This document shows, in pieces, positions 34,132-38,738 of a stretch of 39,063 nt of DNA. The stretch comes from Bacteroidota bacterium (GTDB lineage: Bacteria > Bacteroidota > Bacteroidia > Bacteroidales > UBA7960). A program made the translations under genes and the position numbers. The notes beneath the pieces are model-generated. The model was not told the origin of the DNA and did no database searches. It saw nothing but the letters and a program-made list of their open reading frames with translations. Every line of letters begins with the position of its first letter. The stretch's first letter is position 1. Location of the stretch: assembly GCA_007694165.1 (NCBI GenBank), contig RECE01000193.1, positions 1 through 39,063 of the forward strand, written 5' to 3'.

Positions 34132-34884
34132 CTACTCCCCTTCATAAATCATCTTACGGGTCATACCGCCATCGACCATGAAATTCTGCCCGGTGACAAA
34201 GCCAGATTTATCGGAAAGCAGGAACCAGCAAAGCTCAGCGATGTCTTCAGGTTTTCCTATGCGTCCGGCAGGGTGCTGAAGATGATGTTTTTCTGCCCAA
34301 ACAGGGTTTTTTCTTCTGCTTTTCTTTTGCCAGGGAGCCACTTCAATCCAGCCGGGACTGATACAATTGACCCTTACATAGGGCTGCAGGCTCATGGCCA
34401 ATGCATGGGTGAGTGATAATACCCCGCCCTTGGAAGCAGCATAGGCTTCGCTATCGGGCTCCGACATAAAGGCCCGGGTGCTGCAGATATTGACAATGGT
34501 CCCCTGGTTTCTTTTCAACCCCGGTGCCAGTTGTTTGGAGGTAAGGAAATGGGAGGTAAGATTTACCGCAAGGGTATGATTCCATTCCTCAAGGCTAAGA
34601 TCTTCCAGAGGTTTGAACTGCGATATGGCGGCATTATTGACAAGGTATTTCAATGCAGGGCGCTGGCTGACAATGCTTTCGAGCGTCTTTGACAGCAGCT
34701 CTTCATTGGAAACATCGCACAAAATGGTTTTACTCATTTGCAGATCGGGGGTTTCCCGGTCAAAATCATCCAGCGCTTCCTTGTCATTGTCCAATACAAA
34801 AACAAAGACATTTTCATGCATCAGTTTCAGACTGATGGCTTTGCCTATTCCCTGGGCTCCGCCAGTAACAATGGCTGTGTACAT
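34132..34884 (-). CDS. Short-chain dehydrogenase/reductase (SDR)
   Basis: A 250-aa classical SDR using NAD(P). TGGAQGIGK is the cofactor glycine motif (about 8-16), NNAAIS is the structural Asn motif, and the catalytic Ser-Tyr-Lys lie in NICSTRAFMSEPDSEAYAASKGG. SPGWIEV follows, and the C-terminal SGFVTGQNFMVDGGM is typical. After the glycine motif, VLDNDKEAL has an Asp at the end of strand 2, which favours NAD over NADP. It is the last gene of the serine acetyltransferase-cysK operon, 28 bp after cysK. Its substrate and its link to cysteine metabolism are unknown. Confidence 0.9.
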   Translation of the reverse strand: MYTAIVTGGAQGIGKAISLKLMHENVFVFVLDNDKEALDDFDRETPDLQMSKTILCDVSNEELLSKTLESIVSQRPALKYLVNNAAISQFKPLEDLSLEEWNHTLAVNLTSHFLTSKQLAPGLKRNQGTIVNICSTRAFMSEPDSEAYAASKGGVLSLTHALAMSLQPYVRVNCISPGWIEVAPWQKKSRRKNPVWAEKHHLQHPAGRIGKPEDIAELCWFLLSDKSGFVTGQNFMVDGGMTRKMIYEGE

Positions 34885-34912: not shown

Positions 34913-35827
34913 CTATTCAAACAGGCCCTCTACCGACAGGTAGCGTTCGCCGGTATCGTAGCAGAAAGTAAGGATACGTGCACCTTTGGGAATTTCTCCC
35001 AGCTTTTTACTCACTGCAGCAAGCGATGCACCTGAAGAAACCCCAATAAACAAGCCTTCTTTAAGTGCAGCCTGCTGGGTAAAAGCAAATGCTTCTTCCT
35101 TTGTAACCGTAACCACCCCATCCAGAATCGACCGGTCGAGCACATCAGGGATAAATCCGGCACCAATTCCCTGCAAGGGGTGCGGTCCGGGCTCTCCTCC
35201 GCTGATAACGGGAGAGAGTGCAGGCTCCACAGCAAAAACCTTCAATTGCGGAAACTTCTTTTTCAATTCCAGGGCAACTCCGGTGATGTGTCCACCTGTA
35301 CCCACGCCGGTTATCATATAATCCAGTCCATCAGGAAAATCGTCCAGGATTTCCCGGGCCGTCTTTTTCCTGTGAACCTCAGGATTGGCAGGATTTTCAA
35401 ACTGGCGCGGCATCCATGAACCCGGTGTGTTTTTCACCAGCTCAGTGGCTTTTTCAATAGCTCCCTTCATCCCTTTTTCGCGGGGAGTAAGTTCAAATTG
35501 TGCGCCGAATATTTTCATAATTCTGCGCCTTTCCAGCGACATGCTCTCGGGCATCACCAGGATCACCTTGTAACCCTTCACTGCTGCTACCATCGCCACA
35601 CCAATGCCTGTATTTCCAGAGGTAGGCTCTATAATGGTTCCGCCCGGCTTTAGGGCGCCACTTTGCTCTGCATCTTCAATCATTGACAGGGCAATGCGAT
35701 CTTTGATGCTGGCACCGGGGTTGTTTTTTTCAAGCTTCATCCATACCTCATAGTCCGAAGAAAATAGATTGTTGATGCGAAGATGGGGCGTATTACCAAT
35801 TAGTTCTAAGATATTTTTTGCTTTCAT
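34913..35827 (-). CDS. cysK: Cysteine synthase (O-acetylserine sulfhydrylase)
   Basis: PLP enzyme that makes cysteine from O-acetylserine and sulfide, 304 aa, normal length. [13 protein letters not shown] carries the PLP lysine (near 43), [16 protein letters not shown] is the Asn/Thr loop that binds the substrate carboxylate, [13 protein letters not shown] binds the PLP phosphate, and SSGASLAAV completes the site. [19 protein letters not shown] is typical of CysK. It follows the serine acetyltransferase gene by 49 bp; the pair carries out both steps from serine to cysteine and is expected to share the leader described at 36730-36876. Confidence 0.96.
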
Positions 35828-35876
35828 TTTGGAAATGATTAAGTTGGGTTAGCATTAGATTAGGAATTGGAAAATA

Positions 35877-36710
35877 TTAAATAACAAAGTTCAGGGGCTC
35901 ACCAAAGTTTTTTCCTGAACGAATTTTTACTTCACTTTTGTGATAAACGACCGAATTGGGAGGTACACTTGCTGTAAGCCATACATTACCTCCTATGATC
36001 GAATCGTGACCAATGATGGTTTTGCCTCCCAGCACAGTGCTCCCGGCATAAATTATCACATTGTCTTCAATGGTGGGATGCCTTTTGGTGGCGGCCATCG
36101 ATTTTTCTACCGTGAGCGCCCCCAGGGTAACCCCCTGATAAATCTTCACGTTATTGCCGATATGGGTGGTTTCTCCTATAACTACTCCCGTGCCATGGTC
36201 AATAAAAAAATTGTTTCCGATTACAGCACCCGGATTGATATCAATTCCGGTTCTGCCATGAGCGTATTCAGAAAACACCCTGGGCAAAACAGGAACATTT
36301 TGCAATACCAGTTGATGGGATAGCCGGTAGACTGTGATGGCATAAAATCCGGGATACGCATGAAACACTTCCTGAATGCTGGCAGCTGCGGGGTCGAACT
36401 TGTATATGGATTCGGCGTCTTTGCGCAAGTTCTCATAAATCTCCGGCAGTGCATCAAAGAAGTTGTCAACAATGGTTTGAGGTGATTCTTTAAGCAAAAC
36501 CTTCAGGTTATACAGCAGCTTTCGCAACAAAAGCTCCAGCTCCCTGAAACGCAATATGTATTCGTCTGTATTGTTCGGCAAATCGAGAGGAAACAACAAT
36601 TGTATGATATCATTAACAAACCTGTTGGAGTCGGATTTACAGGGCATATAACACGCTTCAGCGGTATTGTCACGAAAAAGTTTTTCAGCAAAATTTCGGT
36701 GGTTTTCCAT
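35877..36710 (-). CDS. cysE: Serine O-acetyltransferase
   Basis: First committed step of cysteine synthesis, acetyl-CoA plus serine to O-acetylserine, 277 aa. A helical N-terminal part (about 1-130) is followed by a left-handed beta helix with hexapeptide repeats (about 150-265). The catalytic His172 is in FIDHGTGVVIGETTHIGNN, and KIYQGVTLGA and KRHPTIEDNVIIYAGSTVLG match the family. The longer N-terminal helical part fits the EpsC-type subgroup. The ATG at 36710 is chosen because a terminator hairpin lies inside the upstream extension of the frame (36711-36824). The C-terminus ends in NFVI, and a terminal Ile is the residue by which family members dock into CysK. It leads the cysE-cysK-SDR operon. 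Confidence 0.94.
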   Translation of the reverse strand: MENHRNFAEKLFRDNTAEACYMPCKSDSNRFVNDIIQLLFPLDLPNNTDEYILRFRELELLLRKLLYNLKVLLKESPQTIVDNFFDALPEIYENLRKDAESIYKFDPAAASIQEVFHAYPGFYAITVYRLSHQLVLQNVPVLPRVFSEYAHGRTGIDINPGAVIGNNFFIDHGTGVVIGETTHIGNNVKIYQGVTLGALTVEKSMAATKRHPTIEDNVIIYAGSTVLGGKTIIGHDSIIGGNVWLTASVPPNSVVYHKSEVKIRSGKNFGEPLNFVI

Positions 36711-36729
36711 TTTGTCAATATTTAAACAT

Positions 36730-36762
36730 AAAAAATCCCTTTCACTGCTTGCAATGAAAGGG
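36730..36762 (-). terminator. Attenuator: intrinsic terminator in the cysE leader
   Basis: On the minus strand CCCTTTCATTG (36762-36752) pairs with CAGTGAAAGGG (36747-36737) over 11 bp, with one U-G pair, around a CAAG tetraloop, followed by ATTTTTT (36736-36730). It has the form of an intrinsic terminator yet ends 19 nt before the cysE start, and no other gene lies upstream on this strand that it could end. It therefore probably controls read-through into cysE-cysK. Confidence 0.8.
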
Positions 36763-36792
36763 TTGTGATTTTGTTTGCAGGTATAGAAATAA

Positions 36793-36876
36793 TTAAGGCA
36801 CAAAATACAGCCATTCAGTTGCACTATTTATCACAGTACAACAATATAAACAGCTGATGGTTGGAAGGTTCATCAT
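36793..36876 (-). CDS. Candidate cysteine-rich leader peptide of the cysE-cysK operon (27 aa)
   Basis: A 27-codon frame opens with ATGATG at 36876 and ends with TAA at 36793. Codons 9, 12 and 13 are all TGT (36852-36850, 36843-36841, 36840-36838), giving the peptide segment ISCLYCCT; the rest ends EWLYFVP. It lies 31 nt upstream of the terminator hairpin and is out of frame with cysE. Three Cys codons in five is a strong excess for a rarely used amino acid and falls just before the segment that can disrupt the terminator. The last Cys codon is 14 nt before that segment, about the distance a stalled ribosome covers. No Shine-Dalgarno site is seen, as usual here. Translation is inferred, not shown. 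Confidence 0.6.
   Translation of the reverse strand: MMNLPTISCLYCCTVINSATEWLYFVP
36811..36823 (-). promoter_or_regulatory. Candidate antiterminator segment in the cysE leader
   Basis: On the minus strand TGCAACTGAATGG (36823-36811) can pair with CCTTTCATTGCA (36761-36750), the 5' arm and loop of the terminator, forming 11 bp with one bulged C and one U-U mismatch. This pairing and the terminator exclude one another. The segment lies inside the leader frame, directly after the cysteine codons. Confidence 0.55.
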
Positions 36877-36916
36877 ATTATTAAAAAATGAAATCAAAAC
36901 AAACAATTAAAATTTC

Positions 36917-37002
36917 AAACCTGCGCTATCAGGGAAAATGGTCGGGGAAAACGTCTTTCCCATAAGATAATCACATCCGACCCCGATTTACAGTTTAGGT
37001 TT
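36917..37002. other. Nested inverted-repeat block, possible structured RNA or operator
   Basis: Read on the plus strand, AAACCT (36917-36922) pairs with AGGTTT (36997-37002); inside, GGTCG (36940-36944) pairs with CGACC (36978-36982) and directly adjoins a hairpin GGGAAA/TTTCCC (36945-36950 with 36956-36961). TCGGGG (36942-36947) can instead pair with CCCCGA (36981-36986), an alternative fold. The orientation is unclear because each pairing works on both strands. It matches no riboswitch class that I can recognise. It lies upstream of the cysE leader on one side and the tryptophanase promoter on the other. Confidence 0.45.
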
Positions 37003-37162
37003 CTTAAAAGTAAAAATACGCATAAATTTCATCGTAAAAAGTATGTTTGGTTTTTTTAACCTTTCGTCGAATTATATTGATTTTTCACCACCAAAATACA
37101 CTTTTGGCTTTTTCTAAACAAAATCCCTCCAGGAGTTTAATGGTAGCATGGTAAATTTTCAT

Positions 37163-37170
37163 TATTTTTG
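37163..37170 (+). promoter_or_regulatory. tnaA -7 promoter box (TATTTTTG)
   Basis: Exact TAnnTTTG match, 191 bp before the tnaA ATG. A TTTA at 37136-37139 is 23 bp upstream and is a poor -33 element. A weak AATTCAA/TTGAATT hairpin (near 37216-37234) lies in the leader. Confidence 0.5.
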
Positions 37171-37361
37171 TAAGAGATAAAATGCTAACTATCTATGCTT
37201 TACTCCTATTTATTAAATTCAATACGTTTGAATTATTTGAATATAAAGCGACGCGACTCGTACTAAGAAATCATCCCCTTTCATAGCGGGCAATTTTCCT
37301 GTTGCCGGCAAATCACTCCAATTTCTTAACAACTTTTTTTTACTCCCAAAACAGTAATGCT

Positions 37362-38738
37362 ATGGAATTACCCTATGCAGAACCTTATAAAATGAAGGTA
37401 ATTGAACCTCTTTACCGCAGCAGCAGGCAGGAGAGGGAACAATGGATCAAAGAAGCCAGGTACAATTTGTTTAACCTGAAAAGCGAACAGGTATTTATCG
37501 ATCTTTTGACCGATTCGGGTACCGGCGCCATGAGCCAGTACCAGTGGTCAGAAATTATGCTGGGCGATGAGAGCTACGCAGGTTCCAGCAGCTTTTTTAA
37601 GTTGAAGAACGTGATTACCCAATTGCTCGACATGCCCCATTTTCTGCCTACCCACCAGGGAAGGGCTGCCGAAAACGTTTTGTTTTCTGCTCTTATAAAA
37701 GAAGGAGACATCGTACCGGGAAACTCACATTTCGACACTACCAAAGGCCATATCGAGTATCGCAAAGCCCGTGCTATTGACTGCACCATTGACGAGGCCT
37801 GCAACACATCGGAGTTTCATCCGTTCAAAGGAAACATTGATCTTGAAAAGCTGGAGGAGGTTTTCAAAAAATACCCCTCAGACAAAATCCCCTTGTGCAT
37901 CATCACCGTTACATGCAATACTTCAGGCGGGCAACCCGTTTCTATGGAAAATATCCGCGAAGTATCGGCTCTTTGCCATAAATATGGTGTTATGCCCATA
38001 TTTGATGCCGCTCGTTTTGCCGAGAATGCCTATTTTATCAAAACCCGCGAACAAGGTTTTGAAAACAAAACCATCAAGGAAATCGTAAAGGAAATGTTTT
38101 CTTACGTGGAAGGTGCTACCATGAGCAGCAAGAAGGACGCCATTGTAAATATCGGCGGGTTTATTGTCTTACGCGACAAGTCGCTGTTTGATAAAGCCAG
38201 CGTTTTCAACATCATGTACGAAGGCTATCTGACCTACGGAGGGCTTGCCGGACGAGATTTGGGTGCACTGGCACAGGGTCTTATGGAAGGTACCGAATTT
38301 GATTATCTTGAGGCCCGTATCGGACAGGTTGCTTACCTGGGAGAAAAATTAACCCAATCCGGCATTCCCATCCAGGTGCCTACCGGTGGCCATGCAGTAT
38401 TCGTGGATGCCAAAAAGTTTCTTCCCAATCTGCCAAAAGAGGAATATCAGGCTCAAACCCTGGCTATTGAGCTCTATATTGAAGGCGGGGTGAGAGGTGT
38501 GGAAATCGGAACATTGCTCGCCGACAGAAACCCGGTGACCCGCGAAAACCGTTACCCACAACTGGAACTCCTCAGGCTGGCACTTCCCAGGAGGGTTTAC
38601 ACCAACAATCATATGGACTACATAGCTGCAGCCCTGAAAAACATCTGGGATCGCAGGGAAAGCATAACCAAGGGATTCAGAATTACTTCTGAAGCTCCTA
38701 TTATGAGGCACTTTACGGTAGAGCTGGAAAGAGTCTGA
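37362..38738 (+). CDS. tnaA: Tryptophanase (tryptophan indole-lyase)
   Basis: PLP beta-lyase cleaving tryptophan to indole, pyruvate and ammonia, 458 aa. FIDLLTDSGTGAMSQ, PTHQGRAAENVL and SARF-like FDAARFAENAYFIK match the tryptophanase/tyrosine phenol-lyase family; the PLP lysine is Lys258 in MSSKKDAIVNIGG. Three positions separate the two enzymes and all favour tryptophanase: FDTTKGH has Asp where phenol-lyases have Thr, VEIG has Ile where they have the substrate-binding Arg, and MRHFT has His where they have Phe. The ATG at 37362 gives the conserved N-terminus; a TTG at 37302 would add 20 residues. No tryptophan permease follows. Family members also degrade cysteine, which is notable beside the divergent cysE operon. 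Confidence 0.93.
   Translation: MELPYAEPYKMKVIEPLYRSSRQEREQWIKEARYNLFNLKSEQVFIDLLTDSGTGAMSQYQWSEIMLGDESYAGSSSFFKLKNVITQLLDMPHFLPTHQGRAAENVLFSALIKEGDIVPGNSHFDTTKGHIEYRKARAIDCTIDEACNTSEFHPFKGNIDLEKLEEVFKKYPSDKIPLCIITVTCNTSGGQPVSMENIREVSALCHKYGVMPIFDAARFAENAYFIKTREQGFENKTIKEIVKEMFSYVEGATMSSKKDAIVNIGGFIVLRDKSLFDKASVFNIMYEGYLTYGGLAGRDLGALAQGLMEGTEFDYLEARIGQVAYLGEKLTQSGIPIQVPTGGHAVFVDAKKFLPNLPKEEYQAQTLAIELYIEGGVRGVEIGTLLADRNPVTRENRYPQLELLRLALPRRVYTNNHMDYIAAALKNIWDRRESITKGFRITSEAPIMRHFTVELERV

Follow-up and report, generated by a model that had tools for sequence, protein, structure and literature searches.

The stretch of DNA analysed here, which we call the window, comprises 39,063 nucleotides from a genome bin assigned to a Bacteroidota bacterium (Bacteroidales, UBA7960; contig RECE01000193.1 of assembly GCA_007694165.1), and the nearest named relatives are Bacteroidota. 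On its minus strand, cysE and cysK lie behind a leader region with a short reading frame and several alternative RNA pairings, and tnaA is read away from them on the plus strand. The features are as follows.

34132-34884, minus strand: SDR-family oxidoreductase gene (best match PRK05717, below the cut-off), the probable third member of the operon after cysE-cysK
34913-35827, minus strand: cysK, cysteine synthase A (TIGR01139, above the cut-off)
35877-36710, minus strand: cysE, serine O-acetyltransferase of the EpsC/CysE type (NF041874 above the cut-off, TIGR01172 below it), with its ATG start codon at 36710
36730-36735, minus strand: T run of the terminator
36737-36762, minus strand: intrinsic terminator hairpin (segments 3:4), 11 bp with a 4-nt loop, -15.7 kcal/mol
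36751-36774, minus strand: segment 3, the 5' arm of the terminator with its upstream flank, partner of the antiterminator
36800-36827, minus strand: segment 2, the antiterminator, able to pair with segment 1 (through 36808-36827) or with segment 3 (through 36800-36822)
36833-36856, minus strand: segment 1, the protector arm, which holds all the Cys codons and pairs with 36827-36808 (z = -4.5)
36838-36852, minus strand: control region, with TGT codons at 36852-36850, 36843-36841 and 36840-36838 (codons 9, 12 and 13)
36793-36876, minus strand: leader frame of 27 codons with a TAA stop, peptide MMNLPTISCLYCCTVINSATEWLYFVP, an open reading frame whose Cys run recurs in relatives
37362-38738, plus strand: tnaA, tryptophanase TnaA, divergent from the cysE leader

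The leader peptide opens MMNLPTISCLYCC, and its frame begins with two successive ATG codons, so that the start is either 36876 or 36873. A sequence-only reading of this DNA had described a frame of 27 codons, the 9th, 12th and 13th of them TGT, a segment (36823-36811) that starts 14 nt past the last Cys codon and can form 11 bp with the 5' arm of the terminator, and an 11-bp hairpin with a U-tract ending 19 nt before the serine acetyltransferase ATG. All of these elements were confirmed, and the antiterminator helix proved to extend further than described. The short frame carries several codons for the amino acid of the downstream genes, and an intrinsic terminator, as judged by its sequence, stands between this frame and the first structural gene: the T run ends (36730) 19 nt and the hairpin 26 nt before the cysE ATG. 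The stability of the hairpin far exceeds that of shuffled sequences (-4.4 +/- 2.1 kcal/mol), and the interval 35800-37500 holds four terminator-like sites against 1.5 +/- 1.1 in shuffles, the other three having 5-7 pairs. We also considered the hairpin as the transcript end of the neighbouring gene and rejected this, because tnaA reads the opposite way; the terminator should instead act on transcripts that begin in the intergenic region and head towards cysE. An inverted repeat (36746-36762 with 37276-37292, 82% identical and 513 nt apart) was considered as a functional pair and judged to be due to chance.

Folding of the leader revealed a further element that the earlier reading had missed, a strong protector hairpin between segments 1 and 2 (36856-36833 with 36827-36808) of -21.8 kcal/mol, which none of 200 shuffles equalled; the leader as a whole folds with z = -4.1. 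We then computed the expected number of 2:3 base pairs with a ribosome on the leader, assuming that the ribosome covers the 16 nt preceding the A-site codon and 15 nt counted from its first position. In the window this number was 16.0 for a ribosome halted on the first Cys codon; it fell to 5.1 when the ribosome stood at the stop codon and to 4.8 when there was none, and shuffling the middle segment under a stalled ribosome gave 6.4 +/- 4.0 (p = 0.010, the lowest value possible with 100 shuffles). In the minimum-energy fold of the RNA up to the 5' arm of the terminator, the stalled ribosome leaves 36822-36800 paired with 36751-36774 over 20 bp. A plain duplex-energy test of the window's antiterminator was not significant (p = 0.097). 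In the folding computations, stalling releases the window's antiterminator, whose pairing is incompatible with the terminator, and the 1:2 hairpin retains segment 2 when the leader is not translated, the expected pairing falling from 16.0 to 4.8 bp.

The same arrangement recurs before cysE in relatives. Of 47 genomes of the same family that were searched, 27 yielded matches, 21 of them clear cysE homologues (E 4e-72 or better); one of these, L010, was left out of the count since just 114 nt of its upstream region are available, in which a terminator of the usual type is visible. At least three Cys codons within five, together with a terminator, precede 14 of the 20 assessable genes, and L006 has a weaker version with two adjacent Cys codons and a terminator. 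The leaders found include SCLYCC, VCCCYLL, APCCCVLQ, VCCCTMK, LCCCPRF and PCCCSFT, as well as SCCCAAT, FCCCCSR, NCCCFP, ICCCCKY and KCCCYLC. The expectation that Cys-codon runs and hairpins would be shared by the cysE leaders of related Bacteroidota was therefore borne out for the Cys run, the terminator and a matching antiterminator, but not for every relative, because five of the 20 assessable genes in the same family (L007, L013, L014, L017 and L020) have no Cys leader. Before L014 and L020 there are weak terminator-like matches only, and the terminator before L017 resembles, by eye, the end of the upstream gene. The cysE genes of L013 and L014 may be under another control.

In a scan of both strands of 91 cysE loci (514 kb, after removal of L031-L040, ten loci that duplicate family genomes), a Cys-run frame followed by a terminator occurred at 19 places on the cysE strand and at two on the opposite strand; the Cys run lies 98-221 nt upstream of cysE in 18 of the 19. 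Four of these 18 came from the search of named genomes, namely L083 (Saprospiraceae), L096 and L104 (unclassified Bacteroidota) and L107 (Chitinophagaceae bacterium DXS, CP128386, whose record carries no metagenome-assembly label). In the order sample the scan found the element at 11 of 48 cysE loci, including the doubtful L208 with its weak 7-bp terminator, and L167 adds one more; the next-best amino acids, Leu and Val, gave four each. In the phylum sample, three of 69 loci carry the element (L153, L215 and L221, the last two near-identical), a number not above those of short frames with a terminator for Ile (four), Phe (three) and Lys (three). The reverse strand of both samples together gave none among 117. 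These samples, from which the duplicates L138, L164 and L184 had been dropped, consist of the best-scoring loci among matches that were listed in order of their similarity to two query proteins (30 loci each, followed by 20 and 40 stretches), and their counts are therefore not unbiased estimates of prevalence. Chance occurrence of Cys runs was rejected on the strength of the 91-locus scan and of the Cys enrichment in the order sample. A separate observation concerns L050, where six consecutive Cys codons, 380 nt upstream of cysE, are followed by a strong hairpin whose T run is poor; this uncounted locus is probably one more instance that escaped the scan. Taken as a whole, the comparison places the predicted Cys attenuator in part of the Bacteroidales and in a few other Bacteroidota. 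The gene order does not set loci with the element apart, since cysK is next after cysE at 104 of 118 checked loci without the element as well as at 27 of 28 with it; cysE-cysK is thus a general pairing, to which the element comes as an extra. This count skipped loci with less than 400 nt 3' of cysE and no cysK match, and left out L194-L253, L031-L040, L138, L164 and L184.

For a joint test of the antiterminator we assembled 33 elements, leaving out L208 and adding L006, found by eye, and L167. The mean expected number of 2:3 pairs was 13.9 with the ribosome stalled, 4.6 with the ribosome at the stop codon, 9.4 without a ribosome and 7.5 when the middle segment was shuffled under a stalled ribosome, and the stalled value exceeded both the element's own stop value and its own shuffled mean in all 33. 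Taken singly, 21 elements reached p <= 0.05 and 12 did not, clearly so L009, L021 and L107; because the elements are related by descent, p-values combined over them should not be read at face value. The duplex-energy test was significant at p <= 0.05 for 14 of 19 antiterminators, the exceptions being L001 (the window), L003, L019, L096 and L107. The leaders looked too diverged to align, and covariation was assessed by swapping segments rather than on an aligned structure. On average 13% of foreign middle segments matched the cognate one, against 50% expected without co-evolution, and 20 of the 33 elements scored at or below 0.1, with weak results for L003, L009, L018 and L107 (0.34 to 0.62); the swap test excludes four sets of near relatives and is otherwise uncorrected for kinship or for the length of the swapped segment. 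One compensating change was seen by eye in L005, where the terminator arm has G for the window's U and a C in the antiterminator pairs with this G, with a mismatch at the same position in L005's own terminator. As regards the protective effect of the 1:2 hairpin, the 2:3 pairing drops by at least 2 bp without a ribosome in 18 of 33 elements. As a control, the E. coli trp leader under the same model gave 9.1, 0.0 and 0.0 bp of 2:3 pairing (stalled, at the stop and free).

The position of the stop codon deserves separate comment. It had been noted as a weak point that a ribosome at the TAA would mask only part of the antiterminator, and this concern is real. Over the 33 elements the stop codon has no advantage in masking segment 2 over the other codon positions from the Cys run to the terminator (mean rank 0.47), and no preferred stop position was found. 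The concern is not fatal, since in the window a ribosome at the stop still lowers the 2:3 pairing from 16.0 to 5.1 bp. The decisive event is probably the movement of the ribosome through the antiterminator. The spacing between stop codon and terminator nevertheless varies little, being 22-34 nt in 31 of 33 elements with a median of 28.

Recurring Cys runs, terminators and antiterminators, together with the stalled-ribosome folding, support the original interpretation as cysteine attenuation. We conclude, with a probability of about 0.9, that cysE-cysK, and probably the SDR gene too, are controlled by the leader through ribosome-mediated transcription attenuation in response to charged tRNA-Cys; that there is a real RNA switch before cysE-cysK, of the type known from trp and his, is very likely. 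Transcription would begin upstream of the leader frame, and a ribosome would start the leader peptide behind RNA polymerase. When Cys-tRNA is ample, the ribosome would pass the TGT codons and run through segment 2, so that 3:4 forms and transcription stops before cysE. When Cys-tRNA is scarce, the ribosome would stall on the TGT codons, hairpin 1:2 would open and segment 2 would pair with segment 3 while segment 4 is still to be transcribed, allowing read-through; for these two states the pairing was computed, and the outcome is what it would be expected to produce. Without translation, 1:2 would hold segment 2 and transcription should also terminate, given the protector hairpin and the pairing computed for the window. 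In the complete leader at equilibrium, a stalled ribosome leaves the terminator in place in 30 of 33 elements, and the complete E. coli trp leader likewise keeps its terminator. Because the full leader favours the terminator fold, the outcome must be decided by kinetics, in line with the accepted view of trp attenuation.

Three other explanations of the leader have to be weighed against transcription attenuation. The Cys codons might be incidental to a riboswitch or T-box that controls the operon, and S-box riboswitches do control sulfur genes in other phyla; nevertheless, the best match under lax Rfam settings was PyrR, at 21.4 bits against a cut-off of 54, with none at the gathering score, and the Cys enrichment in the order sample speaks for the codons, so that we leave this explanation next to no probability. 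For the window itself, a riboswitch or T-box was rejected on the lack of an Rfam match at the gathering score. The Cys-rich peptide could itself be the sensor, through nascent-chain arrest or by responding to metal or redox state rather than through the decoding of its codons, and it is true that Cys runs could bind metal or be oxidised and that several leaders have 4-6 Cys. The window's leader, however, has just three, not all adjacent, and beyond the Cys run the peptides of different lineages are unlike by eye (CLYCCTV, VCCCYLL, APCCCVLQ, KFCCCCGVR), as expected if only the codons matter; a peptide sensor thus appears very improbable.

An effect mainly on the translation of cysE, in which stalling would alter the RNA around its start, as proposed for mycobacterial poly-Cys leaders, has a precedent in the cysteine genes of M. 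smegmatis, which are described as being under translation attenuation in work cited in the discussion of PMC13236596. The window's hairpin has a T run, however, and stops 26 nt short of the cysE ATG, and in L011 over 110 nt separate the end of the hairpin from cysE, a distance at which it could not cover the start site; we therefore regard control of translation as very improbable.

Transcription attenuation at cysE-cysK has close counterparts elsewhere. The E. coli trp and his leaders share with the window the codons for the regulated amino acid, the 1:2, 2:3 and 3:4 alternatives and the intrinsic terminator, and the trp leader has the same computed profile of stalled, stop and free states; they differ in the amino acid (here Cys), the genes (here cysE-cysK) and the phylum. 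Cys-rich leaders of actinobacterial cys operons were reportedly the subject of work by Canestrari in 2020. According to PMC1262725, short frames with runs of Cys codons precede cysteine biosynthesis genes in Actinobacteria, and there the authors, finding no conserved terminator hairpins, suggested Rho, whereas here terminator and antiterminator are clear. The motif uORFC-8-2, a predicted Cys-tRNA-sensing attenuator with 145 examples before cysS in Rhodobacterales, is alike in that its short upstream frame holds tandem Cys codons within a stem and an intrinsic terminator comes next (PMC8632094). That motif is a single conserved one of Alphaproteobacteria, confined to cysS in the sections consulted, whereas the present leaders belong to Bacteroidota, precede cysE-cysK and have diverged between lineages; with cysE-cysK as the downstream genes, the window does not fall within uORFC-8-2.

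Within the phylum, a study of Flavobacterium psychrophilum suggested leader-peptide attenuation for its amino acid operons and listed structured elements before pheA and hisG among those conserved in other genera (PMC9723704); this is the same mechanism class as in the window, but the section consulted names no cysteine case, and the main text uses the word 'cysteine' once, for a protease. Leader-like short frames are mentioned for Bacteroides thetaiotaomicron in extracts of PMC7366714, and the text of a survey of premature terminators (PMC2965389), as far as it was available, contains no mention of Bacteroid- or Flavobacter-. In the literature searched, much of it available in part, we found no cysE/cysK attenuator of Bacteroidota; a comparative survey of attenuation by Lopatovskaya et al. 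(2010), cited in PMC4833913, may include Bacteroidetes cases. The earlier statement that no cysteine example has been described in Bacteroidota fits the literature searched here, but cysteine attenuators as such have been published in other phyla. The window gave no matches to Rfam 15 families at the gathering score, nor did any of the leaders searched against Rfam, so such leaders may be under-annotated.

Two further leaders of this kind were observed in the window's own genome. The hisG gene (L115, G000:C265) is preceded by MKTNQVNSFSAIHHHLHHHHAVKYLCRKN, with the His run HHHLHHHH and a terminator, and trpE (L122, G000:C212) by MTNNLHIHNFWWWHSKVNYRVELTGH, with the Trp run WWW and a terminator. 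Under the same model the hisG leader gave 13.8, 2.9 and 6.6 pairs (stalled, at the stop and free) and the trpE leader 14.3, 2.6 and 2.7. His-run leaders similar to that of L115 occur in the relatives L112, L114 and L116, and the trpE leaders of relatives have WWW in L121 and L126 and WW in L123 and L124. The estimated contamination of the source bin, 8.3%, is an unlikely source of these leaders, because L114, L116 and L121, which belong to further genomes of the same genus, have closely similar ones. The organism thus appears to use leader attenuation for at least three amino acids.

Promoters were sought through the motif TAnnTTTG, which is of the Bacteroidota type. A strict match is absent from the 80 nt upstream of the window's leader; among 32 elements, 12 have the motif within 80 nt upstream of the leader ATG, compared with 2.1 expected from base shuffles, and in 11 of these 12 it lies 10-32 nt before the ATG. 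A sigma-70 consensus promoter has a single match on the leader strand, at 37188-37161. On the plus strand, TATTTTTG at 37163-37170, about 190 nt upstream of tnaA, fits the Bacteroidota motif.

In a wider view, attenuation through Cys codons may be common for cysE-cysK in the Bacteroidales and recur elsewhere in the Bacteroidota, with His and Trp attenuators accompanying it in these genomes, a generalization to which we give slightly less than even odds. If it is true, ribosome and RNA polymerase would be closely coupled in Bacteroidota, and the near-constant spacing of 22-34 nt between stop codon and terminator would be a footprint of this coupling. Bacteroidota have unusual promoters and translation starts, and to our knowledge transcription-translation coupling has hardly been examined in this phylum. 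The 33 elements, a few of them closely related, supply natural variants of one attenuator, and the predicted mechanism would offer a specific and testable answer to how many Bacteroidota could tune cysteine synthesis without a dedicated regulator protein.
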